Of a stretch of DNA of 64,000 nucleotides, positions 5,308 to 17,607 are shown one piece after another. Below the pieces are notes generated by a model. The model made no database searches and was not told where the DNA came from. It worked only from the letters and a program-made list of their open reading frames with translations. The translations under genes and the position numbers were made by a program. The DNA is from Thiotrichales bacterium (GTDB taxonomy: Bacteria > Pseudomonadota > Gammaproteobacteria > HK1), in the NCBI GenBank assembly GCA_026709935.1, contig JAPOSC010000048.1, positions 62,001-126,000 of the forward strand. Reading direction: 5' to 3'. Position 1 is the first letter of the stretch, and every line of letters starts with the position of its first letter.

Positions 5308-6264
5308 GTGACCAGACGGACCCTGCAGGTGGTTCTGGCGCAGCCACGGGGGTTCTGCGCCGGAGTCGTGCGGGCGATCGACATCGTCGAGCGAGCCCTG
5401 CAGGTCTACGGCCCGCCGGTCTACGTTCGGCACGAAATCGTCCACAATCGGCATGTCGTCGCCGCGCTGCGCGAGAAGGGCGCCCGCTTCGTCGAGGAGG
5501 TTGACGAGGTTCCACTCGGTGCTGTCACCGTCTTCAGTGCCCACGGGGTGTCCCGAAAGGTCGAGGACGACGCCGGCGCTCTGCATCTGCAGGTGATCGA
5601 CGCGACCTGTCCCCTGGTGAGCCGGGTGCACAACGAAGCCGGACGGTACGCAGGCAACGGCTACGAAATCGTTCTCATCGGGCACTCCGGACACCCCGAA
5701 GTCGAAGGAACGATGGGCCGGATCACCGGTCCGGTGCACCTCGTGTCGAACCTGGATGACATTGCTTCGTTGGCGCCGGGGAATCCTGCAAAGCTCGCCT
5801 ACGTGACCCAGACCACGCTCAGCGTCGACGATACCCGGGAGATCATTGCGGCGCTTGTGGAGCGTTTTCCGCACATTGTCGGTCCCGACGTCAAGGACAT
5901 CTGTTACGCCACGCAGAACCGCCAGACTGTGGTGCGCCGGCTGGCGGAGCACTCCGACGTGATCCTGGTGATCGGCGCCGACTACAGTTCGAACTCTCGG
6001 CGGCTGCAGGAAATCGGTCAGGAGGCGGGGACCGCAAGCCATCTCATTCCGGATGCCGGCAGTCTGGACCCCATCTGGCTGGAGGGGGTCCGGACAGTAG
6101 GAATCACCGCGGGCGCATCGGCGCCCGAATCACTCGTGCAGGGCCTGATCGAGCGTCTCCACGGCATGTTCGACGTCACCGTGAGTACCCTCGGCGGAAT
6201 CGAGGAGAACGTGGTCTTCAAGCTGCCGCGCACGCTGTATGACACCACGGAGCAGTCCGTGTAG
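5308..6264 (+). CDS. ispH: 4-hydroxy-3-methylbut-2-enyl diphosphate reductase
   Basis: Last step of the MEP pathway: the 4Fe-4S enzyme converts HMBPP to IPP and DMAPP. The three cluster-binding cysteines are visible at C17 (QPRGFCAGV), C101 (DATCPLV) and C199 (KDICYATQNRQ), with the substrate histidine region HEIVHN at 42-47 and IGHSGHPEVEG. The length of 318 residues is normal. The GTG start at 5308 is backed by AGGGAGG six bases upstream. It lies 33 bases after the dehydrogenase and may be co-transcribed with it. Confidence 0.97.
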   Translation: MTRRTLQVVLAQPRGFCAGVVRAIDIVERALQVYGPPVYVRHEIVHNRHVVAALREKGARFVEEVDEVPLGAVTVFSAHGVSRKVEDDAGALHLQVIDATCPLVSRVHNEAGRYAGNGYEIVLIGHSGHPEVEGTMGRITGPVHLVSNLDDIASLAPGNPAKLAYVTQTTLSVDDTREIIAALVERFPHIVGPDVKDICYATQNRQTVVRRLAEHSDVILVIGADYSSNSRRLQEIGQEAGTASHLIPDAGSLDPIWLEGVRTVGITAGASAPESLVQGLIERLHGMFDVTVSTLGGIEENVVFKLPRTLYDTTEQSV

Positions 6265-6444
6265 CGCAGCGCAATCGGGCCTCGCACGGAATCGGAGACG
6301 CTCGGCTGCATCGTCGGGAAGTTCAATGTCGAGGGGACACTGCGTTCCGGGGCCGCAAGTTCACCGGCTTCGGGGTGTGGGTCTGTCCGTGCGTCGCCCC
6401 GCGGTGGCGGTGAAACAAGTATGGGCGGCGCTCATCCGCCCGCA

Positions 6445-6473
6445 CTGCCGGCCGCCACCTGGCCGGCCGGCAG
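6445..6473. terminator. GC-rich hairpin between ispH and the SOUL gene
   Basis: CTGCCGGCC at 6445-6453 pairs perfectly with GGCCGGCAG at 6465-6473 around an 11-base loop. There is no T tract, so it may be a Rho-independent terminator of a high-GC type or simply a structured leader for the downstream lipoprotein gene. The remaining bases of this 250-base gap show nothing else. Confidence 0.3.
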
Positions 6474-6514
6474 GACCGCAACGCTGCAACCGGCTCGTGA
6501 GCAGGGGACCGTCG

Positions 6515-7192
6515 ATGCGCAACGAAGTACTTCGGGGCCTGTTGGCCGGCCTGACCGGATTGTTCATCGCCGGATGTTCGATATTCGGAGGCAAGGCTGC
6601 GGAAGAACCGCAGTATCGCGTCATCGAGAGTGACGGCGTAATCGAAATCCGCCATTACGAGGCGTTCACCGTTGCCCGAACCGTGGTCGACGCTCCGTTC
6701 GATGACGCGATCCGCCGGGGATTCCAGCGGCTGTTCGACTACATTACGGGCGCCAATCGTCGGCAGACGGACATCGAGATGACCGCTCCGGTGCTGGTGA
6801 ACGTGGACTCGGATCGGGCGGATGCGACGGCGCCGATCGTCTTCCTGCCGCGGCGAGGGACCCACCCGGGCTCAGGTCGCGCTCCGGATGACGGTGGAAT
6901 GGTCGGATGGACCACCAGCTTCGTACTTCCGCCGGGCTATACGAGGGAGAGCGCTCCGATTCCGGACGATTCCGCCATAGCGATTATCGACATCGACGCA
7001 CAACGCGTTGCGAGCATCACGTTCAGTGGCAGACTTCGCAATCATGCGGCGGAGACGTACCGTCAGGACTTGGCGCGCTGGCTCGACATGCGCGGCATCG
7101 AACACCTGAACGACTGGCGCATTGCCGGCTACAACCCTCCCTGGAGCATTCCCGCGTTTCGGCGCAACGAGGTTCTTGTCACTCTGCAATAG
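6515..7192 (+). CDS. SOUL-family haem-binding lipoprotein
   Basis: 225-residue exported protein. The N-terminus is a lipoprotein signal with lipobox IAGC (Cys21). The rest matches the SOUL/HEBP haem-binding fold: [20 protein letters not shown], the middle block [24 protein letters not shown] and a C-terminal [16 protein letters not shown], all signatures of bacterial SOUL proteins. It probably binds haem or tetrapyrrole at the outer or inner membrane; its physiological role is not established. Its 3' end abuts a converging nhaA fragment. Confidence 0.88.
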
Positions 7193-7214
7193 CCGGGCGG
7201 GAGTGCGAACGGAT

Positions 7215-7566
7215 GTCGACCCTGGTGGCGATGGCGATGAATCGCACCTTCGGGGAGAGCGACGCCCGGCTGCCGACGAGCGCCAGAATGCCGAGAGCGA
7301 AGGCGATATCGGTGGTGGCCGGGATTGCCCAGCCATTCAGCGTCGGAGGATCGTGACCGTAATTGATGTAGACATAGATCGTGGCCGGTACGATCATGCC
7401 GCCGACGGCGCCGAAGAACGGGAGGAGCGCCTGCTTCTTTGTCGAGAGCTGCCCCTCGATGAATTCGTGCTTGGTCTCGAGGCCGACAAGCAGAAAGAAC
7501 ACCGCCATCAGTCCGTCGTTGATCCACAGCAGCAGGGGCTTGGCGAGACCGTCGCCGGCGATGGGA
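7215..7566 (-). pseudogene. Internal fragment of a Na+/H+ antiporter NhaA gene
   Basis: Read on the minus strand, this stretch gives [20 protein letters not shown], then [39 protein letters not shown] and [12 protein letters not shown]. These are consecutive membrane segments of NhaA including its TDIAFALG motif. Only about 115 of some 390 residues remain. Both ends are missing: one runs into the SOUL gene and the other stops before the aminotransferase. It has no start with a ribosome-binding site and is a dead fragment left by deletion or rearrangement. Confidence 0.85.
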
Positions 7567-7610
7567 TGAAGACGCGGGCTTCACTTCGAGACACTGAAGG
7601 AGAGGACACG

Positions 7611-8861
7611 ATGTCCCGCATTCCCGGTCGCAACTTCCTGTTCGTCCCCGGCCCCACCAACGTCCCCGATCGTGTCCAGCGCGCCATGGTGGTGGCCATG
7701 GAGGACCACCGCTCGTCGAAGTTTCCGGAGCTCTCCACGAGTGTGCTCGCGGATCTGAAGCGGATCTACAGGACCGAGGGGGGTCGGGTCTTCATCTTCC
7801 CATCGTCGGGTACCGGCGCCTGGGAAGCGGCGCTGACCAACACGCTTTCTCCCGGGGACAAGCTGCTCGCGACGCGCCTGGGCCATTTCAGCCACCTGTG
7901 GATCAGCATGGCCGAACGGCTCGGCTTCGTGGTCGAGGTGCTGGAAGTCGGCTGGGGCGAGGGGATGCCGCTCCCGCGCGTCGAGGAGGCCCTGCGAGCG
8001 GACACCCGAAGTGAAATTCGCGGCATCCTCGCCTGCCACAACGAGACCTCGACAGGGGTCACCAACGACATCGGAGCCCTGCGTGCGGTGATGGATGGCT
8101 GCAACCATCCCGCGATGCTGTTCGTGGACGCGGTGAGCTCGCTCGGAAGCATCGACTTCCGCATGGACGAGTGGGGCGTCGATCTCGCGGTGAGCGGTTC
8201 TCAGAAGGGACTGATGCTGCCAGCCGGGCTCGGCATCCTGGCCGCCAGCGAGAAGGCTCTGCATTCAATGCAGAGCGCCACGTCGCGTCGCTGCTACTTC
8301 GACCTCGCCGACATGATTTCCGCCAACGCCACCGGGTATTTCCCCTACACCCCGGCGCTCCCCATGCTCTACGGGCTGCGAGAGAGCCTGAACCTCATTT
8401 TCGAGGAGGGACTCGACCTTGTCTTCGGACGCCACCACTACCTGGCTGAAGGCGTGCGCGCCGCCATCACCGAGGGGTGGGGACTGGCACTGTGCGCGCA
8501 GGAGCCGGCGCGGTACTCCGACACGGTCAGCGCGGTGATGGTCCCGGAGGGCATCGACGCCGCCCACGTCATCGACGTCGCCTTCCGGCGCTACAACCTG
8601 GCGCTCGGCTCCGGGCTCTCGAAGGTGGCGGGGAAGCTTTTCCGGATCGGCCACCTCGGTGACCTCAACGAACTCATGCTCATGGGTGCCATCGCGGGGA
8701 GCGAGATGGCGATGCTCGATGCGGGTATCGGCGTCACCCCTGGCAGCGGGGTGGCGGCCGCCTCGAACTACTGGCGCAGCAATGACCGGGTGCCGAGGCG
8801 CCGGGCCGGCCAGGCCCAGCAGTACTACGCCGGACACTCCACGGGAACGGTAAGCGGTTGA
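7611..8861 (+). CDS. Serine-glyoxylate / alanine-glyoxylate-type aminotransferase
   Basis: PLP-dependent class V aminotransferase of 416 residues, close to serine-glyoxylate aminotransferase (SgaA/AGXT type), which makes glycine and hydroxypyruvate from serine and glyoxylate. Family features are FVPGPTNVPDRVQRAM at the N-terminus, PSSGTGAWEAAL, FVDAVSSLGS and the PLP lysine K199 in SGSQKGLMLPAG. AAGGAGAGG lies just upstream of ATG 7611. It stands alone between two gene fragments. A link to C1, serine-cycle or photorespiratory-type glyoxylate metabolism is inferred from the family only. Confidence 0.9.
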   Translation: MSRIPGRNFLFVPGPTNVPDRVQRAMVVAMEDHRSSKFPELSTSVLADLKRIYRTEGGRVFIFPSSGTGAWEAALTNTLSPGDKLLATRLGHFSHLWISMAERLGFVVEVLEVGWGEGMPLPRVEEALRADTRSEIRGILACHNETSTGVTNDIGALRAVMDGCNHPAMLFVDAVSSLGSIDFRMDEWGVDLAVSGSQKGLMLPAGLGILAASEKALHSMQSATSRRCYFDLADMISANATGYFPYTPALPMLYGLRESLNLIFEEGLDLVFGRHHYLAEGVRAAITEGWGLALCAQEPARYSDTVSAVMVPEGIDAAHVIDVAFRRYNLALGSGLSKVAGKLFRIGHLGDLNELMLMGAIAGSEMAMLDAGIGVTPGSGVAAASNYWRSNDRVPRRRAGQAQQYYAGHSTGTVSG

Positions 8862-8880: not shown

Positions 8881-9050
8881 GTGCTGATCGAGCTGCTCGA
8901 CGAGCTTGCCAGGTGGCTCGAGCGGCGCAAGGTGCGGGCCCAGGTCTACCTGATCGGCACCGCCGCAATGAGCCTGGTGCTCGACCGCTTACCCGCGCGC
9001 GTTGTCATCGGTCGACTCGCGGCATCCCCCATCCCCCGAAGGAGTCGATG
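8881..9050 (+). pseudogene. N-terminal fragment of a nucleotidyltransferase (DUF6036/AbiEii-like)
   Basis: Directly after the aminotransferase, a plus-strand frame gives LIELLDELARWLERRKVRAQ, then VYLIGTAAMSLVLDR. This resembles the N-terminal helix and the glycine motif of DUF6036-type nucleotidyltransferases. The catalytic Asp motif that should follow is gone; the frame continues with unrelated residues to a stop at 9048-9050, antisense to the next gene's 3' end. It appears to be a truncated remnant. A more complete member of this broad class lies at 46930-47454. Confidence 0.55.
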
Positions 9051-9759
9051 AGAACACGATGGTGACGTCCAGGTTCCTGCCGCTCGCGTCACGAAGGTTC
9101 GAGATGCCTTCGTAGCGGAGCATCGCTCGGGTCGATGCGTCGTACCATACGCGTATCGCGGGCACCACGAGCCGCAACAGGGCCGAATCGATCGCCAGCT
9201 CGAACCCGATGGTGTTGTCGTCGTCGCGGCGGGACAGCCGGCGAATCCGCATGTCGACGGAGTCGAGCCGGCTCGGGACCAGGAACGGCCGGATCAGCGC
9301 CTCGCCCCCCACCAGCCGGTCCCAGCTTCCGGCGATGAACCAATCGAAGCCGGCGTCGACGATCAGTCCGGCGGCGGAGGGAATCGTTGCGGATCGCTCG
9401 GCCTCGTCCTGCGATGCGCGGTAGCGCACCACCAGCGCATCCCCCTGCCTTTCGAACGCTTCCCCGTGTCCGGTGGCCGAGTTCGACAGCTCGAAGTCGG
9501 GGGCGACGAAGTCGGTCCGATAGTCGACCCGCTTGGTGGCGAAGATCTCTCCGTCCGGCCGGCGGTAGGTCACCCGTTCCTCGACGAGTCGACCATTCTC
9601 CCGACGCACCTCGTGAAATTCCCGGTACAGCGGCTTTCCCGACGACCGCTCGCAGGCCATGCCGGTACGGTCGTGCATCCAGTCTTTCCCGCTCTGCGCG
9701 GCGAGCATCGATGAAACCGGCAGCAGTGCGAGGGCCAGGATCAATCTCCGCGTGATCAT
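8989..9759 (-). CDS. Exported protein of unknown function, last gene of the lipid operon
   Basis: 256 residues with a clear signal peptide (ITRRLILALALLPVSSMLA, likely cleaved after AQS). I do not recognise the family. The mature part is rich in beta strands and charged residues (VTYRRPDGEIFATKRVDYRT, VVRYRASQDEAERSATIP, GFDWFIAGSWDRL) and could be a periplasmic beta-sandwich or lipocalin-like lipid-handling protein; that is a guess. The ATG at 9757-9759 overlaps the stop of the DUF1475 gene (ATGA), so it is translationally coupled to the operon above it, which implies a role in the same lipid modification. Confidence 0.75.
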   Translation of the reverse strand: MITRRLILALALLPVSSMLAAQSGKDWMHDRTGMACERSSGKPLYREFHEVRRENGRLVEERVTYRRPDGEIFATKRVDYRTDFVAPDFELSNSATGHGEAFERQGDALVVRYRASQDEAERSATIPSAAGLIVDAGFDWFIAGSWDRLVGGEALIRPFLVPSRLDSVDMRIRRLSRRDDDNTIGFELAIDSALLRLVVPAIRVWYDASTRAMLRYEGISNLRDASGRNLDVTIVFSSTPSGDGGCRESTDDNARG

Positions 9760-10208
9760 GCTGTCTCCCTCCCGGCGCGGTGCGCGCCAAGCCAGAATCG
9801 CGCCGCGCTGCCCCGGCAGTGGCGCGCCGCGAGGACCACGTAGCAACCGGCTACCACGTTGCCGAGCAGACAGAGCGCGACAATCCAGGCCCCTGCGACC
9901 ACCGCGTGCGGTTCGCGGAAAAGAACCCACGCGGCGAACAGGGCGAAGCCCGCATACACATCGATCAGTGCGACTCGCCCCCACGCCAGCGCAAGGAGGA
10001 GGGCGCCTTCCTCGAAGAAGTCTCCGCCCGTGACGCCATGCACGAGGGCTCCCCCCATCAACAACGTGATTCCCGCCCCGAGCCCTGTCACCGCCGTCAC
10101 CGGAAACCCGTGCCGGCGCCCTGCGGTCGCTCGTTCTCCGCGCCCCCCCGTATTCGGCGCCGATTCGTCCTCGCCACGATCCGCGGGTCGCTTGCCCGGG
10201 GTGTTCAC
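9756..10208 (-). CDS. DUF1475-like small membrane protein
   Basis: 150 residues with about three to four hydrophobic segments (GLGAGITLLMGGALVHGV, LIDVYAGFALFAAWVLF, WIVALCLLGNVVAGCYVVLA). The pattern LIDVYAGFALFAAWVLFRE and LLGNVVAGCYVVLA is what I expect of DUF1475 proteins, which recur beside CFA-synthase-like genes. The GTG at 10206-10208 overlaps the stop of the upstream methyltransferase (GTGA). The first 35 or so residues are polar and low in complexity. Function unknown; a membrane partner of the lipid methyltransferases is inferred from position. Confidence 0.65.
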   Translation of the reverse strand: MNTPGKRPADRGEDESAPNTGGRGERATAGRRHGFPVTAVTGLGAGITLLMGGALVHGVTGGDFFEEGALLLALAWGRVALIDVYAGFALFAAWVLFREPHAVVAGAWIVALCLLGNVVAGCYVVLAARHCRGSAARFWLGAHRAGRETA

Positions 10209-11278
10209 CGTTGGCTCCCGGACGCTTCGTCCCGGTGTCCGGTGGCCGGCTCGAACAGGTAGTGCGACACCCACCACTCCTGTCCCTTCGCATACCCGAA
10301 CAGCTCCGAGCAGGCCATGAAGAACAGCCGCCATCGGACCCACCACCGCGGCGCCTCGGCGCCGTAGACGGATTCGAGGATCGGCTCGATCCGATCCCGG
10401 CGCAGGTCCATGTTCGCGAGCCAGGCATCGGCGGTGCGCTGATAGTGGCGTCCCGACCAGCGCCACCGATCGACAATGCGCAGGTGTTCGGGAAAGCCGA
10501 GCGGCAGGGCGTCGCTCGGCATCATGCCACCGGAGAAGAAGTATCGGCTCATCCAGTCACTCTCGTCCTTCGGCACGAAGGCGTAGGGGGCGTCGCGGTG
10601 GCAGAAGATGTGCACGAACGCCCGGCCGTGCGGTTCGAGCCACGCTGCGATGCGCCGAAACAGCGCGCGGTGGTTGCGCATGTGCTCCAGCATCTCGACC
10701 GAGACGATGCGGTCGAAGCGACCTCCGGGGTGAAAGTCGTTCATGTCCGCCGTCACCACCCGCAGGTTGCGCAGGCTGCGCCGCTCGGCCTGCGTCTCGA
10801 TGTGGTGGCGCTGCGAGGCCGAGTTGGACACCGCCAGGATCCGCGCCCCGGGGTACCGTTGCGCCATCCACAGGGTGAGTGACCCCCAGCCGCAGCCGAG
10901 TTCCAGAATCCGCATCCCGTTCTCGAGGCCCGCGCGCTCGGCGGTGATTTCGAGCGCCGCCGTCTCGGCCGCGGCCAGGTCCTCGACGCCGTCCCCCCAA
11001 TAGCAGCTCGAGTACTTGCGGTGCGGTCCGAGCACTTCGCAGAAGAACGCCGCGGGCAGCTCGTAGTGCTGCCGGTTCGCCTCGTCCGGCATCAGGGCGA
11101 TCGCCGAGGCATCCATCGCTTCGACGAACCGTCGTGCATTCCTCGCCGTCGCCTCGCAGTCGTCGGCGTGGATTTCGGCGAGTCGCGCCCGCAGCAGGCG
11201 CCGGATCCCGCGTCGCACTATCCAGTCGGGGACCCATCCCCGCTCCGTCCAGCGAATCGCGAGCGAGGCGGCGCTCAT
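10205..11278 (-). CDS. CFA-synthase-like SAM methyltransferase (second copy)
   Basis: 357-residue SAM-dependent methyltransferase of the cyclopropane-fatty-acid synthase superfamily. It shows ILELGCGWGSLTLWMAQRYP (SAM motif I), VSVEMLEHMRNH, FVHIFCHRDAPYAF and SRYFFSGGMMPSD. Compared with the copy at 12699-14069 it is shorter at the N-terminus and more divergent, resembling the Coq/UbiE-like side branch. Such proteins methylate or methylenate unsaturated acyl chains of phospholipids at the membrane. ATG 11276-11278 overlaps the DUF1295 stop (ATGA). Two paralogues in one operon suggest successive modification steps rather than redundancy. Confidence 0.88.
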   Translation of the reverse strand: MSAASLAIRWTERGWVPDWIVRRGIRRLLRARLAEIHADDCEATARNARRFVEAMDASAIALMPDEANRQHYELPAAFFCEVLGPHRKYSSCYWGDGVEDLAAAETAALEITAERAGLENGMRILELGCGWGSLTLWMAQRYPGARILAVSNSASQRHHIETQAERRSLRNLRVVTADMNDFHPGGRFDRIVSVEMLEHMRNHRALFRRIAAWLEPHGRAFVHIFCHRDAPYAFVPKDESDWMSRYFFSGGMMPSDALPLGFPEHLRIVDRWRWSGRHYQRTADAWLANMDLRRDRIEPILESVYGAEAPRWWVRWRLFFMACSELFGYAKGQEWWVSHYLFEPATGHRDEASGSQR

Positions 11279-12078
11279 TGCGCGCGCCCCGCCTTGGTCC
11301 GGACCGGGGGACGCGGAAAGAACGCGGGCACCCGCTCGCGGTAGCGACGGTACGACTCGCCGCGGCTGCGAAGCGCCTGTTTCTCCGTGTAGGGGATGCC
11401 GGTAAGGCGAGTGATGAATACATACATCACGACCACGCCGGCGACGGTGAACCACCAGTAATCGGATCCCACGCCCAGCACGACGAAGCCCCACCATTGC
11501 AACCACTCGAAGAAGTAGTTGGGATGCCGCGACCAACCCCACAGACCGGTATCGCAGACTTCGCCCGCGCGGCCGGGGTCGGCGCGAAAGCGCGCGAGCT
11601 GCCGGTCCGCGATGGTCTCGCCGAGCACCCCGGCCACCCACACCGCGATACCGACTGCATCGAGCCAGTCGAGCCCGCGCATCGCCTCGCTCGCCGCCCA
11701 TATCGGCATCGCGAACATCACCGTCCAGGCCGCCTGGATCTGGAAGAACACGAACAGCCCGATTTCCGCCCGGGTCCCGAGCGCGTCGCGCAGGTACCGG
11801 TACCGCCCCTCCTCGCGGGCGCTGGCGCGGACCCGTCGCCACAGGTACACGCCGAGACGCAGGCTCCATGCCGCGACCATCACCGCCGCGAGCCACCGGC
11901 GGGCGGGGTCGCCGTCGCTGGTCATCGTCACCAGGACCACCGCCACCGCTCCGGTGCCGAAGGTCCATCCGACGTCCACGATGCTCGCATCGCCGGTGCG
12001 GCGCTGGACGAGCCACAGCACCGCCATTGCGACGGCCATGCACGCCCAGGCGATCAAGATTGTCTCGGCCAGGCTCAT
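11275..12078 (-). CDS. DUF1295 membrane protein (steroid 5-alpha-reductase-like fold)
   Basis: 267 residues with six to seven membrane segments. The C-terminal signature DTGLWGWSRHPNYFFEWLQWWGFVV and TGIPYTEKQALRSRGESYRRYRERVPAFFP is that of DUF1295, related to the steroid 5-alpha-reductase and isoprenylcysteine methyltransferase (ICMT) folds that act on membrane lipids with NADPH or SAM. The start follows the DUF2878 stop by nine bases, the only non-overlapping junction of the operon. It plausibly reduces or methylates an acyl-chain intermediate; activity is not established. Confidence 0.9.
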   Translation of the reverse strand: MSLAETILIAWACMAVAMAVLWLVQRRTGDASIVDVGWTFGTGAVAVVLVTMTSDGDPARRWLAAVMVAAWSLRLGVYLWRRVRASAREEGRYRYLRDALGTRAEIGLFVFFQIQAAWTVMFAMPIWAASEAMRGLDWLDAVGIAVWVAGVLGETIADRQLARFRADPGRAGEVCDTGLWGWSRHPNYFFEWLQWWGFVVLGVGSDYWWFTVAGVVVMYVFITRLTGIPYTEKQALRSRGESYRRYRERVPAFFPRPPVRTKAGRAQ

Positions 12079-12087
12079 CCTCCTTCG

Positions 12088-12702
12088 CTATCCTTCGCTT
12101 CTGGCCGCGGCCGGCGCGCCGCGCCCATCCGTCGCCACGTCGGCGCGGGGGTCGAACCGCTCGCGCAGCCACAGCAGCAGAGGCATCGCCAGTGCCCATG
12201 CTGCGGCGACCGCAAGCCATCCGCGCGGCGGGGCGGCGAGCGCGACTCCACCAAGCGCCTCGCCGGCGGTGTAGGCGATCGGTCCGAAGATCGCCCCGGC
12301 GGCGGCGCCCAGCGCATACCGGCGCCGCGCCCAGTCCAGGCTGTGACGAAGCGTCGCCGCGAAGGCCATCCACAGTGCGATCATCCAAGGCGTGGTCGGA
12401 GCGGCGGGTCCGGCGTGGTCGGGGAAGGCGAGGGCGCCGCCGAGCACGAGCACGCTGTCGCATCCGTAGCCCAACATCGCCGCCGCCGCCAGCAGCTTGA
12501 GCTCGGCCGCCCGGTTGGCAGTGCGTCCGCGGAAATCCTGGTCGGCTCCAACGAAGCTCACCAGGTGCAGCGTCAGCCACAGGGCGGCAGCGAACGGTCC
12601 GAGCATCGGGTAGCCCTGCCCGGCGCCGATGATGCAGGCGAACCACACCGCCTGGAATCCTGCGAAGTTGGCGCCGGTGCGCCACACGGCCGCGGACTTC
12701 AT
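12088..12702 (-). CDS. DUF2878 membrane protein
   Basis: 204 residues, about five membrane segments. Features match DUF2878: NFAGFQAVWFACIIGAG near the N-terminus, GYGCDSVLVLGGALAFP and WMIALWMAFAATLRHSLDW. DUF2878 genes are usually found next to CFA synthase and DUF1365. ATG 12700-12702 overlaps the stop of the CFA synthase gene (ATGA). Function unknown; the conserved neighbourhood ties it to fatty-acyl modification. Confidence 0.85.
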   Translation of the reverse strand: MKSAAVWRTGANFAGFQAVWFACIIGAGQGYPMLGPFAAALWLTLHLVSFVGADQDFRGRTANRAAELKLLAAAAMLGYGCDSVLVLGGALAFPDHAGPAAPTTPWMIALWMAFAATLRHSLDWARRRYALGAAAGAIFGPIAYTAGEALGGVALAAPPRGWLAVAAAWALAMPLLLWLRERFDPRADVATDGRGAPAAARSEG

Positions 12703-14069
12703 GTGGATTGCCCCGGTAATCGCTCGGACAGTTGGTCTGACAACTGCTCAGGCAACTGTCCGGGCAACTGTCCGGGTAACTGTCTAGGCAACTGTCCGAG
12801 CACCGGCGCCGCGCGGCAACCGGACTTGCGCAGCAGGAGCTGCACGTCGCCGATGTAGCGCTCCTCGAAGCCCGCTTCGCAGTAGGCGAGATAGAACCGC
12901 CACAGGCGGATGAAGCGCTCGTCGAAGCCGAGCCCGCGCACCGCGTCGAGCTGTGACTCGAACGCCGCGCGCCAGCGCCGAAGCGTTTCCGCGTAGTGTG
13001 GTCCGATGTCCTCCAGGTGCACCGGGCTGAGGTCGGCGCCGCCGGCCGCCGCGGACAGGATCGCCCCGAGCGACGGCACGCAGCTCCCCGGAAACACATG
13101 GCGGCGGATGAAGTCGCTGTGGCGGAGATATTGCCGATAGCGCCACTCGGGCATGGTGATGGCCTGGATCAGCGCCTCGCCGCGTTCGTGCAGGAGCCTG
13201 GCGCACACATCGAAGTAATGCGGCAGGTGTTCGTGGCCGACCGCCTCGATCATCTCGATGGAGACCAGCTTGTCGAAGGTGCCGCGCAGGTCGCGGTAGT
13301 CGCTGTACAGCACCTGCACCCGATCCGCGAGATCTCGCTCCCGGACCAGCCGCTGGACGAAGGCGTGCTGCTCACGCGAGATGGTGGTGGTGGTGACGTG
13401 GCAGCCGTAGCGGTGTGCCGCGTGCACCGCGAAGCTGCCCCACCCCGAGCCGATCTCGACTACCCGATCATCCGGCGAGAGCGCGAGCTTTCGGCAGATG
13501 CGGTCGAGCTTCGTGCGTGAGGCGTCCGCCATGGTGGCATCTGCGTTTTCGAAGATGCCGGCCGAGTAGGTCAGCGTCTCGTCGAGGAACAGCGCGAAGA
13601 AGTCGTTGCCGAGGTCGTAGTGGGCGCCGATGTTGCGCCGGGCGCCGACGCGGGTGTTGCGCCGCGCGAGGTCGCCGAACCAGGCCAGCGCGCCGGCGAG
13701 GGCGGCCGTGCCTCTCTCCATGGCGTCGGTGACTGCGATATCCCGTGCGAACATCCGGATGAGCGCGGTGAGATCGTTCGTGCTCCAGTCACCGTCCATG
13801 TACGACTCCGCCACCCCGAGGCTGCCCCCGAGCAGCACGCGCCGATAGAAGCGCGAGTGGTGTACGTCGATGTGTACCGGCGTCGGCTCCGCTCCGGCGT
13901 CGCCGAATTCCGCCTCGCCCCGCGCGTCGCGCAGCCGCAGGCGTCCCGAGCCGAGCGCCCTCAGCCGGCGGTGCACCAGAGCGCGCGCCCAACCCCCGTT
14001 GCGCCGGCGGTCGGCCGAATGACGGCCCTCGAAACCCTCTCCTGCTTCGGTCCCGTTCATCGACTTCAT
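12699..14069 (-). CDS. Cyclopropane-fatty-acid-synthase family methyltransferase
   Basis: 456 residues. The N-terminal 100 residues are the CFA lipid-binding region, followed by NIGAHYDLGNDFFALFLDETLTYSAGIF, the SAM site VVEIGSGWGSFAVHAA, the Glu-containing SIEMIEAVGHEHLP, FIRRHVFPGSCVPS and FYLAYCEAGFEERYIGD. This is the standard CFA/tuberculostearate-type methyltransferase acting on cis double bonds of phospholipid acyl chains. The last 30 or so residues are an unusual tail of (G/E/D)QL(P/S) units encoded by 12-bp tandem repeats. The chosen ATG (14067-14069) overlaps the DUF1365 stop by ATGA; a second ATG is at 14058-14060. Confidence 0.93.
   Translation of the reverse strand: MKSMNGTEAGEGFEGRHSADRRRNGGWARALVHRRLRALGSGRLRLRDARGEAEFGDAGAEPTPVHIDVHHSRFYRRVLLGGSLGVAESYMDGDWSTNDLTALIRMFARDIAVTDAMERGTAALAGALAWFGDLARRNTRVGARRNIGAHYDLGNDFFALFLDETLTYSAGIFENADATMADASRTKLDRICRKLALSPDDRVVEIGSGWGSFAVHAAHRYGCHVTTTTISREQHAFVQRLVRERDLADRVQVLYSDYRDLRGTFDKLVSIEMIEAVGHEHLPHYFDVCARLLHERGEALIQAITMPEWRYRQYLRHSDFIRRHVFPGSCVPSLGAILSAAAGGADLSPVHLEDIGPHYAETLRRWRAAFESQLDAVRGLGFDERFIRLWRFYLAYCEAGFEERYIGDVQLLLRKSGCRAAPVLGQLPRQLPGQLPGQLPEQLSDQLSERLPGQST
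12720..12801 (-). repeat. 12-bp in-frame tandem repeat in the CFA synthase 3' end
   Basis: Seven or so imperfect copies of a 12-base unit, consensus CAACTGTCCGGG on the plus strand. Read on the minus strand they encode a repeated Gly-Gln-Leu-Pro-type motif that forms the C-terminal tail of the CFA-like methyltransferase. The copy number keeps the frame, so it can change without breaking the gene or the coupled downstream start. Confidence 0.85.
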
Positions 14070-14833
14070 CGACCCGGGGCCCGGGTCATGCGGTGTTTCG
14101 GGTGGGGATGGAATCGTACCCCCTTCAACGCGAGGCGAAGCGCCTGCCAGTAGATGCCGCCGAGCACCGTTGCGGTCATCCACGGATGCCGTACGAGCAC
14201 CGCCGCGAGATTGCGGCGGTCGAACGGGCGAGCCTGCATGGCGAGTGACGCATCGAAGACCACGCGCCCCTGCGTTTCGTTGCGCATGGCTACCAGCAGT
14301 CGTTCGCCGGGGGCGGAAAGCCGCCAGTGGTAGCGATGTTCCATGTCCATGAACGGTGAGACATGGAACGCCTTGTCGAAGCTGAAGCGATGCACGCGAG
14401 CGGTCCGGCCCCGGCAGTCGAGGGCGTAGGCGTGACGTTCGCCCCACGGAGTATTGGTGATTTCGGCCAGGACCGAGTGCAGCCGCACACCGTCGGCTTC
14501 GAAGCAGTAGTAGAACGTCACCGGGTTGAAGCATGCGCCGAGATAGCGAAGATGGGTCAGGGCGCGTACCGGGCCGTCCGGTCGGTGGCCGATGCGTGCG
14601 TGCACCGTGTCGCGCACCGCCGCCGCGAGCGGGCGATCCGGCGGGCCGTGGTAGTCGGCGCGCCGGAACCGGACCGGGGCGGGGCGTCGGGCGGACCACA
14701 GCCAGAAGGGGTCGAACAGTTCGGGCAGCTCGTCGAGATCGAGATACGGCATGAAGAGGCGGTAGGTGAAGGCGTGCGCCCGTCCCGCGTGGCGCCGGTG
14801 GCGTACCCTGCCCACGTACAGGCGGCTGTTCAC
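14066..14833 (-). CDS. DUF1365 protein
   Basis: 255 residues, matching DUF1365: LYVGRVRHRRHAGRAHAFTYRLFMPYLDLDEL at the start, ALTHLRYLGACFNPVTFYYCF in the middle, FDKAFHVSPFMDMEHRYHW and a C-terminal GGIYWQALRLALKGVRFHPHP. Family members are almost always encoded between an FAD-dependent amine-oxidase-like gene and a CFA synthase, as here. The GTG at 14831-14833 overlaps the upstream stop (GTGA). No catalytic role is established; it may be an acyl-chain-handling or carrier protein. Confidence 0.92.
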   Translation of the reverse strand: MNSRLYVGRVRHRRHAGRAHAFTYRLFMPYLDLDELPELFDPFWLWSARRPAPVRFRRADYHGPPDRPLAAAVRDTVHARIGHRPDGPVRALTHLRYLGACFNPVTFYYCFEADGVRLHSVLAEITNTPWGERHAYALDCRGRTARVHRFSFDKAFHVSPFMDMEHRYHWRLSAPGERLLVAMRNETQGRVVFDASLAMQARPFDRRNLAAVLVRHPWMTATVLGGIYWQALRLALKGVRFHPHPKHRMTRAPGR

Positions 14834-16083
14834 GCGTCGAGCCCCAGGCCGAATGCGTCGGTCACCGCGAGCGCGCTGTTCACGCCGTCCTCGTGGAAGC
14901 CGAAACCCCAGTAGGCGCCGCAGTAGGAGATGCGGCGGCGGCGCAAGAGCTGCGAGTGCGCGCGCTGGGCGCTCGCTCGACCGGGCATGAACATCGGGTG
15001 CGAATCGCGCAGGCGACGGATCACGCTCTGGCCGCGCAACGCGCCGTTCGGATTGAGGGTGACGCAGTAGTTGCGGTCGCTGTCGAGACGCTGCAGCCGG
15101 TTCATGTGATAGGTCACCATGACCGCGTCGTGGCGTTGGGCCGGGATGCGGTAGTTCCAGCTCGCCCACAACCCGGCGCGCTCCGGCAGCATCGCGGTAT
15201 CGGTATGCAGGGCGACTTCGTTCTGCTGGTAGGGGAAGCAGCGCAGCACCTCTTCCTCCTTCTCGTCGGGCGCATGCACCATCGCCAGTGCCTGATCTGC
15301 ATGGGCGGCGATCACCACTTCGTCGAACTCGCCGTCGCGTCCGTCCTCAAGACGCACGCGCACCGCGCCGCGCATGCGCTGCACCTGCGCGACGGCGGCT
15401 CCGAGCCGGAGGCGCTCCCGGTACGGGGCGACGAGCGCGGGGATATAGCGCGCCGCGCCGCCGGTGACGGTGCGCCAGGTGGGGCGGCCGCCGACTTGCA
15501 ACATCGCGTGGTTGCGCAGGAACTCCAGCACGAAGCGGGCGGGAAACTGTGCGAAACGATCGGCTGGACAGGACCACAGCGATGCCCCGAGGGGCAGGAA
15601 GTAATGTCGAGCGAACGCCTCGCCGTAGCCGGCGCTCGCGAGGTAGTGCTCCACGGTGACCCGTTCGTCCATCCCGGCGTCGAGAAGGCGCCGGGCGTCG
15701 CACTGGAAACGCACGATGTCGAGCAGCATGCGCCAGTGACCGGGATCGAGGAAGTTGCGCTTGTGCGCGAAGAGTCGGCCCACGTTGCTCGGGTTGTACT
15801 CGAACCGGGTCGCCTCGCAGTGGACGCTGAAGCTCATGTCCGAGGCGTGCGACGCAACGTCGAGCGCATCGAACAGTCGGCAGAGGTTGGGGTAGTTCCG
15901 TTCGTTGAACACGATGAAGCCGGTGTCGACGCCGATGTCGCGTCCGTTCTCGTCGACCCGGATCGTGCGGGTATGTCCGCCGGGCCGCGACGACGCTTCG
16001 AACACCGTCACCTCGTACCGGCGCGACAGCACATGGGCCGCGGTCATGCCCGCGATCCCGGCGCCGATGACCGCAATCTTCAT
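14830..16083 (-). CDS. FAD-dependent oxidoreductase of the CFA cluster (amine-oxidase fold)
   Basis: 417 residues. The N-terminal Rossmann motif IAVIGAGIAGMTAAHVL binds FAD; VFEASSRPGGHTRT is the second FAD motif; FMPGRASAQRAHSQLL and CGAYWGFGFHEDGVNSAL end the protein, as in the 'NAD/FAD-binding protein' linked to DUF1365. Homologues in the Rhodobacter sigma-E regulon take part in desaturating or oxidising methylated acyl chains on the way to furan fatty acids; assignment to that reaction here is inference. ATG 16081-16083 overlaps the desaturase stop (ATGA). Confidence 0.9.
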   Translation of the reverse strand: MKIAVIGAGIAGMTAAHVLSRRYEVTVFEASSRPGGHTRTIRVDENGRDIGVDTGFIVFNERNYPNLCRLFDALDVASHASDMSFSVHCEATRFEYNPSNVGRLFAHKRNFLDPGHWRMLLDIVRFQCDARRLLDAGMDERVTVEHYLASAGYGEAFARHYFLPLGASLWSCPADRFAQFPARFVLEFLRNHAMLQVGGRPTWRTVTGGAARYIPALVAPYRERLRLGAAVAQVQRMRGAVRVRLEDGRDGEFDEVVIAAHADQALAMVHAPDEKEEEVLRCFPYQQNEVALHTDTAMLPERAGLWASWNYRIPAQRHDAVMVTYHMNRLQRLDSDRNYCVTLNPNGALRGQSVIRRLRDSHPMFMPGRASAQRAHSQLLRRRRISYCGAYWGFGFHEDGVNSALAVTDAFGLGLDA

Positions 16084-17240
16084 CGCGACGATCGCCGATG
16101 GACCGTACGACCGGGCGGCGATACGTCGGGGCGCCGGGTCGGCGTCGTGCCTTCGGACCGGAGCGGTTCGCGCGTGGACCCATCTCCTTCCCGGGCGTGC
16201 GCTGTCACCGTACGGAGATCTCCGCTGGCGCGAAGCGACTCGCCGGTACGGAGAGCCGGGGAGGGCCGCGCCCTTGCTTCGGCAATCACCCGCGTCGGCA
16301 CCGGGGTCAGATCCGAGACGAGCCCCAGCGCAGCGAGGAAGCGCAGGCCCAGCCACGTGAGGTCGAGCTCCCACCACCGGAACCCCTGACGGGCCGCGGA
16401 CGGGTAGCGGTGGTGGTTGTTGTGCCACCCCTCGCCGAGGGTGATGGTGGCGAGAAACGCATTGTTGCGGCTGTCGTCGGGGGTGTCGTAGCGACGGCTT
16501 CCCCAGCCGTGGGCCAGCGAGTTGATGCTGTAGGTCGCGTGGTAGAGCAGAACCGTCGAGACTGCGAACCCCCACACGAACATCTGCCCGGCACTCGTGC
16601 CGAGCTCCGGCCGTGCGCTCTCGAGCCAGCCTCCGAGGGCCGCGCACCCGGCGCCGAGCGCGACGAACGGCACCCAGTCGATGCGTTCGACCATGCGCAA
16701 CTCCGGAAACCGCATCCAGTCCCGGACCCGGTCGGCCCGGATCGCGAAGCTCTCCGGGATGAGAAACCAGAGCGTGTGACTGAACCAGCGTCCGCGGTAC
16801 TGCGGCGAGTGCGGGTCGTCGGCGGTGTCCGAGTTCTGGTGATGCACCCGGTGATGGCCCGCCCACCACAGCGGGCCGCGCTGACCCGCGGTGCAGCCGA
16901 GCAGCGCCATCGCCAGGGTCACGGTGCGCGAGGCGCGGAATGCGCGATGAGAGAAGTAGCGGTGGTAGAAGGCGGTAATGAAGAACATGCGCGAGAGATA
17001 CAGCGCGGCGCAGACCCATAGCGCCACCGGCGAGACGCCCACCACCAAGATGAACGCACAGGCGATGTGCAGGGCGACGAATGGAGCCGCCCGCAACGGA
17101 TCGATTCGGCGGCTGCACGCGGAGTCCGGGGCTTCGAACGTGCACGGATCGTTGAACAGCCAGCGTCCTGCATGTGCCGCCGCGGTGCCCATGTCGCGGA
17201 TCATGCGGGCAGCGATGCCGGGAAGATGGATACCCTTCAT
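16080..17240 (-). CDS. Membrane fatty acid desaturase (acyl-CoA / delta-9 type)
   Basis: 386 residues, first gene of the operon. The three histidine boxes of membrane di-iron desaturases are present: HRYFSH, HRVHHQ (in WAGHHRVHHQNSDTADDPHSP) and HNNHHRYP, between hydrophobic segments. It should introduce a cis double bond into a saturated acyl chain, supplying the substrate for the CFA-like methyltransferases downstream. The C-terminal 60 residues after LTPVPTRVIAEA are Arg/Ser/Thr-rich and not part of the conserved domain. The ATG at 17240 has a decayed sensor-kinase fragment just upstream, so the native promoter may lie in the 17241-17600 interval. Confidence 0.92.
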   Translation of the reverse strand: MKGIHLPGIAARMIRDMGTAAAHAGRWLFNDPCTFEAPDSACSRRIDPLRAAPFVALHIACAFILVVGVSPVALWVCAALYLSRMFFITAFYHRYFSHRAFRASRTVTLAMALLGCTAGQRGPLWWAGHHRVHHQNSDTADDPHSPQYRGRWFSHTLWFLIPESFAIRADRVRDWMRFPELRMVERIDWVPFVALGAGCAALGGWLESARPELGTSAGQMFVWGFAVSTVLLYHATYSINSLAHGWGSRRYDTPDDSRNNAFLATITLGEGWHNNHHRYPSAARQGFRWWELDLTWLGLRFLAALGLVSDLTPVPTRVIAEARARPSPALRTGESLRASGDLRTVTAHAREGDGSTREPLRSEGTTPTRRPDVSPPGRTVHRRSSR

Positions 17241-17252
17241 TTGGTGTCGAGC

Positions 17253-17522
17253 CTACGGTCGGGGCGGTGAAACCGGCGTCATCGTGATGTGAACGCGGCG
17301 TGAAGATGGCGTCTCTTCTGCGGCCGGGGGGCGCGCACCCGGGAAGCACACCTCGACGTGCATACCGATCTCCGGCGTGCTTTCGATGCGCACCGACCAG
17401 CCGAATCGGTCGCAAAGCCTCTTGACGATCGAGAGTCCGACGCCATGACCGCCCCCAGCCCCATCCCGATCTCCGTGATCGTGCCGGTCTGCCTTGCCGG
17501 CCCGCACGAATGACCGGAACAC
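17253..17522 (-). pseudogene. Sensor histidine kinase C-terminal fragment
   Basis: The minus-strand frame ends with GGGHGVGLSIVKRLCDRFGW, then SVRIESTPEIGMHVEVCFPG, the G2-box end of a HATPase_c domain. Nothing of the dimerisation domain or N-box remains, and a stop codon stands directly before the first usable codon. It is a 3' remnant of a two-component kinase gene. Its position just before the lipid operon suggests a lost local regulator, though that is inference. Confidence 0.7.
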
Positions 17523-17607
17523 TGATCAGAATCGACTTGCTGCTTGCTGGCGACATCATGGTTCTGGTCGGCAGCCGTCCGGCTCGGGGATCGGTGAAAA
17601 ATGGCGC

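Follow-up and report, generated by a model that had tools for sequence, protein, structure and literature searches.

We describe a nine-gene operon of a Thiotrichales bacterium (GenBank assembly GCA_026709935.1, contig JAPOSC010000048.1, positions 62,001 to 126,000; this whole stretch of 64,000 nucleotides is called the window, and all its coordinates are counted from its first letter) for which the predicted product is a dimethyl furan fatty acid, formed on phospholipids of the membrane, a reading to which we assign a probability of about 0.86. UfaM methylates vaccenate to 11-methyl-12-enoate in Rhodobacter/Rhodopseudomonas (Lemke 2020, PMC7380195); UfaD, a phytoene-desaturase-like protein that uses flavin adenine dinucleotide (FAD) and nicotinamide adenine dinucleotide (NAD), makes a conjugated diene, UfaO, a DUF1365 protein, closes the furan ring using O2, and FufM (RPA0924) adds a second methyl (PMC7380195). 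All four kinds of enzyme were present in the operon, as genes 2 (UfaD-like), 3 (UfaO-like), 4 (UfaM-like), and 7 (FufM-like), and for this reason a dimethyl furan acyl chain is the predicted product. The operon and its associated features are as follows.

16080 to 17240, minus strand: gene 1, FA_desaturase of the stearoyl-CoA desaturase type, 386 amino acids (PF00487, E = 4e-23)
14830 to 16083, minus strand: gene 2, UfaD-like FAD-dependent fatty-acyl desaturase/oxidoreductase, 417 amino acids (PF01593 Amino_oxidase, E = 7e-24)
14066 to 14833, minus strand: gene 3, UfaO-like DUF1365 protein, predicted furan-forming oxygenase, 255 amino acids, GTG start (PF07103, E = 5e-82)
12699 to 14069, minus strand: gene 4, UfaM-like fatty-acyl methylase, 456 amino acids (CMAS, E = 1e-79)
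12088 to 12702, minus strand: gene 5, DUF2878 membrane protein, 204 amino acids (PF11086, E = 2e-34)
11275 to 12078, minus strand: gene 6, DUF1295 membrane protein, 267 amino acids (PF06966, E = 2e-63; PF02544 Steroid_dh, E = 5e-9)
10205 to 11278, minus strand: gene 7, FufM-like second methylase, CMAS-like, 357 amino acids (FufM clade, support 100/100)
9756 to 10208, minus strand: gene 8, DUF1475-like small membrane protein, 150 amino acids, GTG start (PF07343, 27.9 bits)
8989 to 9759, minus strand: gene 9, exported protein with a signal-like N terminus, 256 amino acids (no Pfam family)
12741 to 12797, no strand: 12-base tandem repeat, 4.8 copies, closing the 3' part of gene 4, where it encodes a PGQL-type tail (Tandem Repeats Finder and translation)
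17252 to 17537, minus strand: histidine kinase scar that keeps just the C-terminal ATPase end, left over from a two-component system (HATPase_c, E = 6e-6)

Genes were called considering all in-frame starts, and families were assigned by Pfam. The nine genes followed each other in a row from 17240 to 8989; of the eight junctions computed, seven were 4-base overlaps (five ATGA and two GTGA), and the one between the DUF2878 and DUF1295 genes was a 9-base gap. The original prediction, made from the sequence of the window, had described a nine-gene operon with exactly these junctions; every detail of it was borne out by the gene calls and Pfam, and the overlaps and gap were exact on recomputation. 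Its idea that the product takes several steps and might be a methylated furan was also supported and can be sharpened to a predicted dimethyl furan acyl chain.

The proposed steps of genes 4, 2, 3, and 7 were modeled by homology, each on an enzyme studied experimentally in Rhodobacter or Rhodopseudomonas. Gene 1 would probably supply the mono-unsaturated substrate, onto which the UfaM-like gene 4 product would transfer a methyl from S-adenosylmethionine (SAM), leaving a shifted double bond and no cyclopropane ring. The UfaD-like enzyme (gene 2) would then introduce a further double bond conjugated with the first, the UfaO-like protein (gene 3) would insert oxygen from O2 and close the furan ring, and the FufM-like enzyme (gene 7) would place a second methyl on the ring. 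Dimethyl furan fatty acids are believed to scavenge the reactive oxygen that light generates. Judging from the studied pathway and from neighboring genes in relatives, the furan lipid would most likely protect membranes against singlet oxygen.

The two methyltransferases

A scan of genome contigs with FufM-type proteins gave Rhodopseudomonas sp. AAP120 (L091), Rhodopseudomonas sp. B29 (L092), and R. palustris JSC-3b (L104). AAP120 had three strong members of the methyltransferase family: one beside a DUF1365 and a FAD protein (the UfaM position), one RPA3082-like, and one FufM. These match the three strong members published for R. palustris (PMC7380195), and the AAP120 proteins served as references. 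In a maximum-likelihood tree of 61 proteins, which held no BfaB, the UfaM-like group including gene 4 formed a single clade (support 100/94), and plain Cfa formed a separate one (support 93/63). Constraining gene 4 to plain Cfa was rejected (approximately unbiased [AU] test, P = 2.4e-8), and gene 4 was 40% identical to AAP120 UfaM versus 34 to 36% to plain Cfa. Gene 7 fell inside the FufM-like clade (support 100/100) and was 53% identical to FufM of AAP120. The closest tree neighbor of each of the two was a protein of a same-genus genome (G001).

The active-site signature of gene 4 was A139, E236, A240, Q266, and T269. Glu236, Ala240, Gln266, and Ser or Ala at position 139 were found in all UfaM-type proteins, gene 4 included (51/51), with Glu239 and Tyr317 kept, whereas all seven plain Cfa proteins, among them E. 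coli Cfa and this genome's other copy, had Gly236, His240, His266, and Cys139. The catalytic bicarbonate of Cfa is held by Glu239, His266, and Tyr317 (PMC11387697); the set was incomplete in gene 4, Q266 replacing His266. Such an altered base site would fit an enzyme yielding a methyl-branched alkene rather than a ring.

The UfaD-like and UfaO-like proteins

Gene 2 was 41% identical to the AAP120 protein adjoining UfaO/UfaM (L208), and gene 3 was 35% identical to the AAP120 protein in the UfaO position. AlphaFold predicted a beta-barrel for gene 3 (predicted local distance difference test [pLDDT] score, 88), and comparison of DUF1365 with the sequences of solved structures found no relative. 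Nitrobindin, lipocalin-like barrels, and the spirocyclases OlmO/OssO matched the gene 3 model at Z scores of only 6.7 to 7.4; because such scores can reflect a common arrangement, we claim no UfaO mechanism from the fold.

Conservation and linkage

The full nine-gene order, from the desaturase to the exported protein, was also found in loci L029 and L030, and close versions, with a few genes absent in some, were found in L028, L032, L225, L226, and L227. A mobilizable plasmid of Acinetobacter sp. WY4 (NZ_CP053948.1, L250, 2313 to 13988) carried a desaturase-ufaDOM-DUF1295-fufM cassette accompanied by a two-component system, a cryptochrome/photolyase, and a lipocalin. Because the same order recurs in related genomes and on the Acinetobacter plasmid, we take the operon to be a real conserved unit and not a product of chance. 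Within 10 kb of fufM, a FAD protein was found in 56 and DUF1365 in 55 of 80 named loci; UfaM was found in 29 of these 80 loci. Across 398 genomes of the phylum, DUF1365 was detected in 30 of 33 FufM-positive genomes versus 121 of 365 others (Fisher's exact test, P = 6e-11, kinship ignored).

Alternative products

Three other products were weighed against the dimethyl furan. Both methyltransferases are CMAS family members, and annotation would name them so, as a plain cyclopropane operon would have it, with one or both enzymes ordinary Cfa and the neighbors unrelated membrane proteins. This is highly improbable, given the rejected placement of gene 4 with plain Cfa, the FufM clade around gene 7, and the loss from gene 4 of Cys139, His240, and the bicarbonate ligand His266; moreover, a plain Cfa with an intact residue set was already present elsewhere in the same genome (G000:C18). 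The original prediction had named the grouping of both methyltransferases within plain Cfa as the result that would undo it, and that grouping was not found. An operon of the Bfa/Tms type, in which methylation is followed by reduction by the FAD protein to give a 10-methyl chain, is just as improbable. Although bfaAB likewise pairs a FAD oxidoreductase with a Cfa-like methyltransferase in overlapping genes (PMC5660069), the FAD protein here is of the UfaD-like Amino_oxidase family, a DUF1365 gene intervenes between the two genes as it does in ufa clusters, and gene 4 lies in the UfaM clade, in a tree without BfaB. Of the two parallels drawn in the original prediction, the one to Ufa stands on the four enzyme types and their clades, and the 10-methyl reading after Bfa received no support.

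A little less improbable, but still very unlikely, is a furan pathway in which gene 7 encodes an N-methyltransferase of the coclaurine type whose target is an amine or a lipid headgroup, so that the product would be a monomethyl furan lipid. The solved structures closest to gene 7 were indeed coclaurine and pavine N-methyltransferases (best, the coclaurine N-methyltransferase 6gkv, E = 5e-68). However, FufM itself reportedly shares 38% identity with the plant methyltransferase AT4G33110 (PMC10940516), the ring-methylating FufM lies in gene 7's own clade, and fufM is tightly linked to furan genes.

Several points count against the dimethyl furan reading. The product is a prediction from the genes. 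The UfaD, UfaO, UfaM, and FufM references were orthologues from named Rhodopseudomonas genomes rather than the experimentally tested CGA009 sequences, and identity to Rhodopseudomonas UfaD/UfaO/UfaM was only 35 to 41%, given which substrate or position specificity may differ. DUF1365 was not detected in 3 of the 33 FufM-positive genomes, all of one genus. Lastly, no promoter or regulator of the operon was identified in this genome, although the draft assembly could hide one.

The DUF1295 protein

DUF1295 was present in 64 of the 80 named fufM loci, mostly directly adjoining fufM. It lay directly upstream of fufM in the Rhodopseudomonas loci L091, L092, and L104, as in the window, and the pairing was kept from alpha- to gammaproteobacteria. 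Gene 6 is probably homologous to the Rhodopseudomonas gene RPA0923, for which the main text of the paper gives no phenotype (PMC7380195). Comparison of the gene 6 sequence with solved structures returned nothing useful. Its confident AlphaFold model (pLDDT, 94) matched the sterol delta-14 reductase 4quv (Z = 15.2; root mean square deviation [rmsd], 4.0; 238 residues aligned) and the steroid 5-alpha reductase 7c83 (Z = 14.9; rmsd, 3.9; 210 residues aligned). The model also resembled ICMT (Z = 12.3), and an ICMT-like methyl transfer may be an alternative role; Pfam sided with the reductases (Steroid_dh). We tentatively infer that gene 6 probably reduces a pathway intermediate or an oxidized furan. 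A ufaDOM cluster on a Streptomyces plasmid also carried DUF1295, with no FufM seen within the stretch read. A furan ring reacts with singlet oxygen to give an enedione. From the reductase fold, the conserved fufM pairing, and the ufaDOM pairing on the Streptomyces plasmid, DUF1295 could be an NADPH-dependent ene reductase of the membrane that serves furan lipids specifically and acts on the enedione or a late intermediate, which we consider a rather unlikely possibility; if true, the operon would both make a scavenger lipid and clear its spent form.

Regulation and light context

Genes for a response regulator and a histidine kinase stand immediately before the operon in L029 and L030. In the window, the space between clpA and the desaturase gene held the kinase scar, which contained an internal TGA, was 52% identical over 68 amino acids to the L029 kinase, and showed 65% identity to the kinase ends of L029 and L030. 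A search of the rest of the genome assembly for the kinase in intact form found none (best match, 31%). The two-component system is thus the likely ancestral regulator, preceding the operon in sister genomes and apparently deleted here.

The original prediction had suggested a search for a sigma-E/ChrR site upstream of the operon. The pattern TGATCC-N15-20-GTAA, taken for this site, had 0 matches in the window, and no ChrR homologue (PF12973) was found in the draft genome, which is 96% complete. Control by an extracytoplasmic function (ECF) sigma factor and ChrR is a feature of R. sphaeroides and is not universal. Searches of the region for sigma-70 promoters or terminators gave chance-level matches. 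In L114 and L115, the two pathway halves lay on either side of an ECF sigma factor and a ChrR-type protein (the singlet-oxygen regulator type); these contexts, together with that of the Acinetobacter plasmid, fit a singlet-oxygen or light response. A UfaM cluster in Pseudomonas is light inducible (PMC9758184), and VC1122 of Vibrio, annotated as Cfa, is induced by blue light (PMC5241685).

Desaturase and accessory genes

Gene 1 carried three histidine boxes (HRYFSH, HHRVHH, and HNNHH), its closest solved structures were SCD1 4ymk (E = 1e-27) and 4zyo, and its homologues headed the operons of L029 and L030 (65% and 61% identical, respectively). The original prediction had counted this desaturase among its pointers to a multi-step product; the desaturase is not a published furan step, the published desaturation being that of UfaD. 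Because the genome had five more desaturase-family matches, unsaturation may have sources besides gene 1. The DUF1475 match of gene 8 was weak yet passed the Pfam cutoff (27.9 versus 22.3 bits), and the gene was kept in L029 and L030. Gene 9 matched no Pfam or NCBIfam family; homologues lay inside the cluster in L028, L029, L030, L225, L226, and L231. Convergent with the operon, on the plus strand at 6239 to 8861, were genes for a SOUL heme-binding protein and a class-V aminotransferase, and distant homologues of the latter were found near fufM in the Caulobacter-type loci L133, L154, and L169.

Comparison with known systems

The operon resembles the Ufa-Fuf pathway of Rhodobacter sphaeroides/Rhodopseudomonas palustris in having all four enzyme types, with both methyltransferases in matching clades. 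In Rhodopseudomonas, however, ufaDOM and DUF1295-fufM lie at separate places, whereas the window has a single overlapping operon that adds the desaturase, DUF2878, DUF1475, and the exported protein and stands in a genome with no ChrR found. The Acinetobacter cassette shares the order desaturase, FAD, DUF1365, UfaM-like, DUF1295, FufM-like; it has no annotated DUF2878, DUF1475, or gene 9 homologue (domain-name annotation only), and its attached two-component system is intact and downstream, with the photolyase adjacent.

A gammaproteobacterial ufaM operon (SDR, FAD, DUF1365, UfaM, DUF2878, DUF3833) has been reported in part in Aeromonas, Halomonas, and Pseudomonas (Pseudomonas, PMC9758184). It shares the FAD-DUF1365-UfaM-DUF2878 core order with the window, as does a cassette on a 550-kb Klebsiella pneumoniae plasmid (NZ_CP129856.1, L251, 4129 to 12593), where a MerR-type regulator accompanies UfaD-UfaO-UfaM-DUF2878-DUF3833. 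FufM, DUF1295, and the desaturase are missing from the Klebsiella cassette, whose own extra genes are SDR, NTF2-like, and DUF3833.

With the BfaA/BfaB operon the likeness is a FAD oxidoreductase and a Cfa-like methyltransferase with a 4-base overlap; the window operon differs in its UfaD-type FAD protein, the DUF1365 gene between, and a UfaM-type active site. Matches on actinobacterial plasmids, tried as a source of bfaAB, proved to be ufaDOM clusters instead. UfaD-UfaO-UfaM clusters were seen on the actinobacterial plasmids NZ_CP108251.1 (L253, 51 to 5916) and NZ_LR134464.1 (L252, 1804 to 7119), adjoining genes annotated as SigK and an anti-sigma factor. The likeness to E. coli Cfa is the CMAS family and the SAM site; the residues that set gene 4 apart from it are those given above, and gene 7 lies in a coclaurine-methyltransferase-like branch.

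The furan pathway is already known; its one-operon form and the DUF1295 link appear to be new, and the open-access papers searched gave no description of a single operon that holds the complete pathway together with FufM, DUF1295, and a desaturase. The compact cassette should carry the whole dimethyl furan fatty acid route in one transcript and would help experiments on the pathway and on its part in resisting photo-oxidative stress. To a pathway with only a handful of studied enzymes it adds a conserved candidate partner, DUF1295, and an optional desaturase, and Q266/A240/E236 offers a simple signature for telling UfaM from Cfa, many such genes being annotated as cyclopropane synthases.

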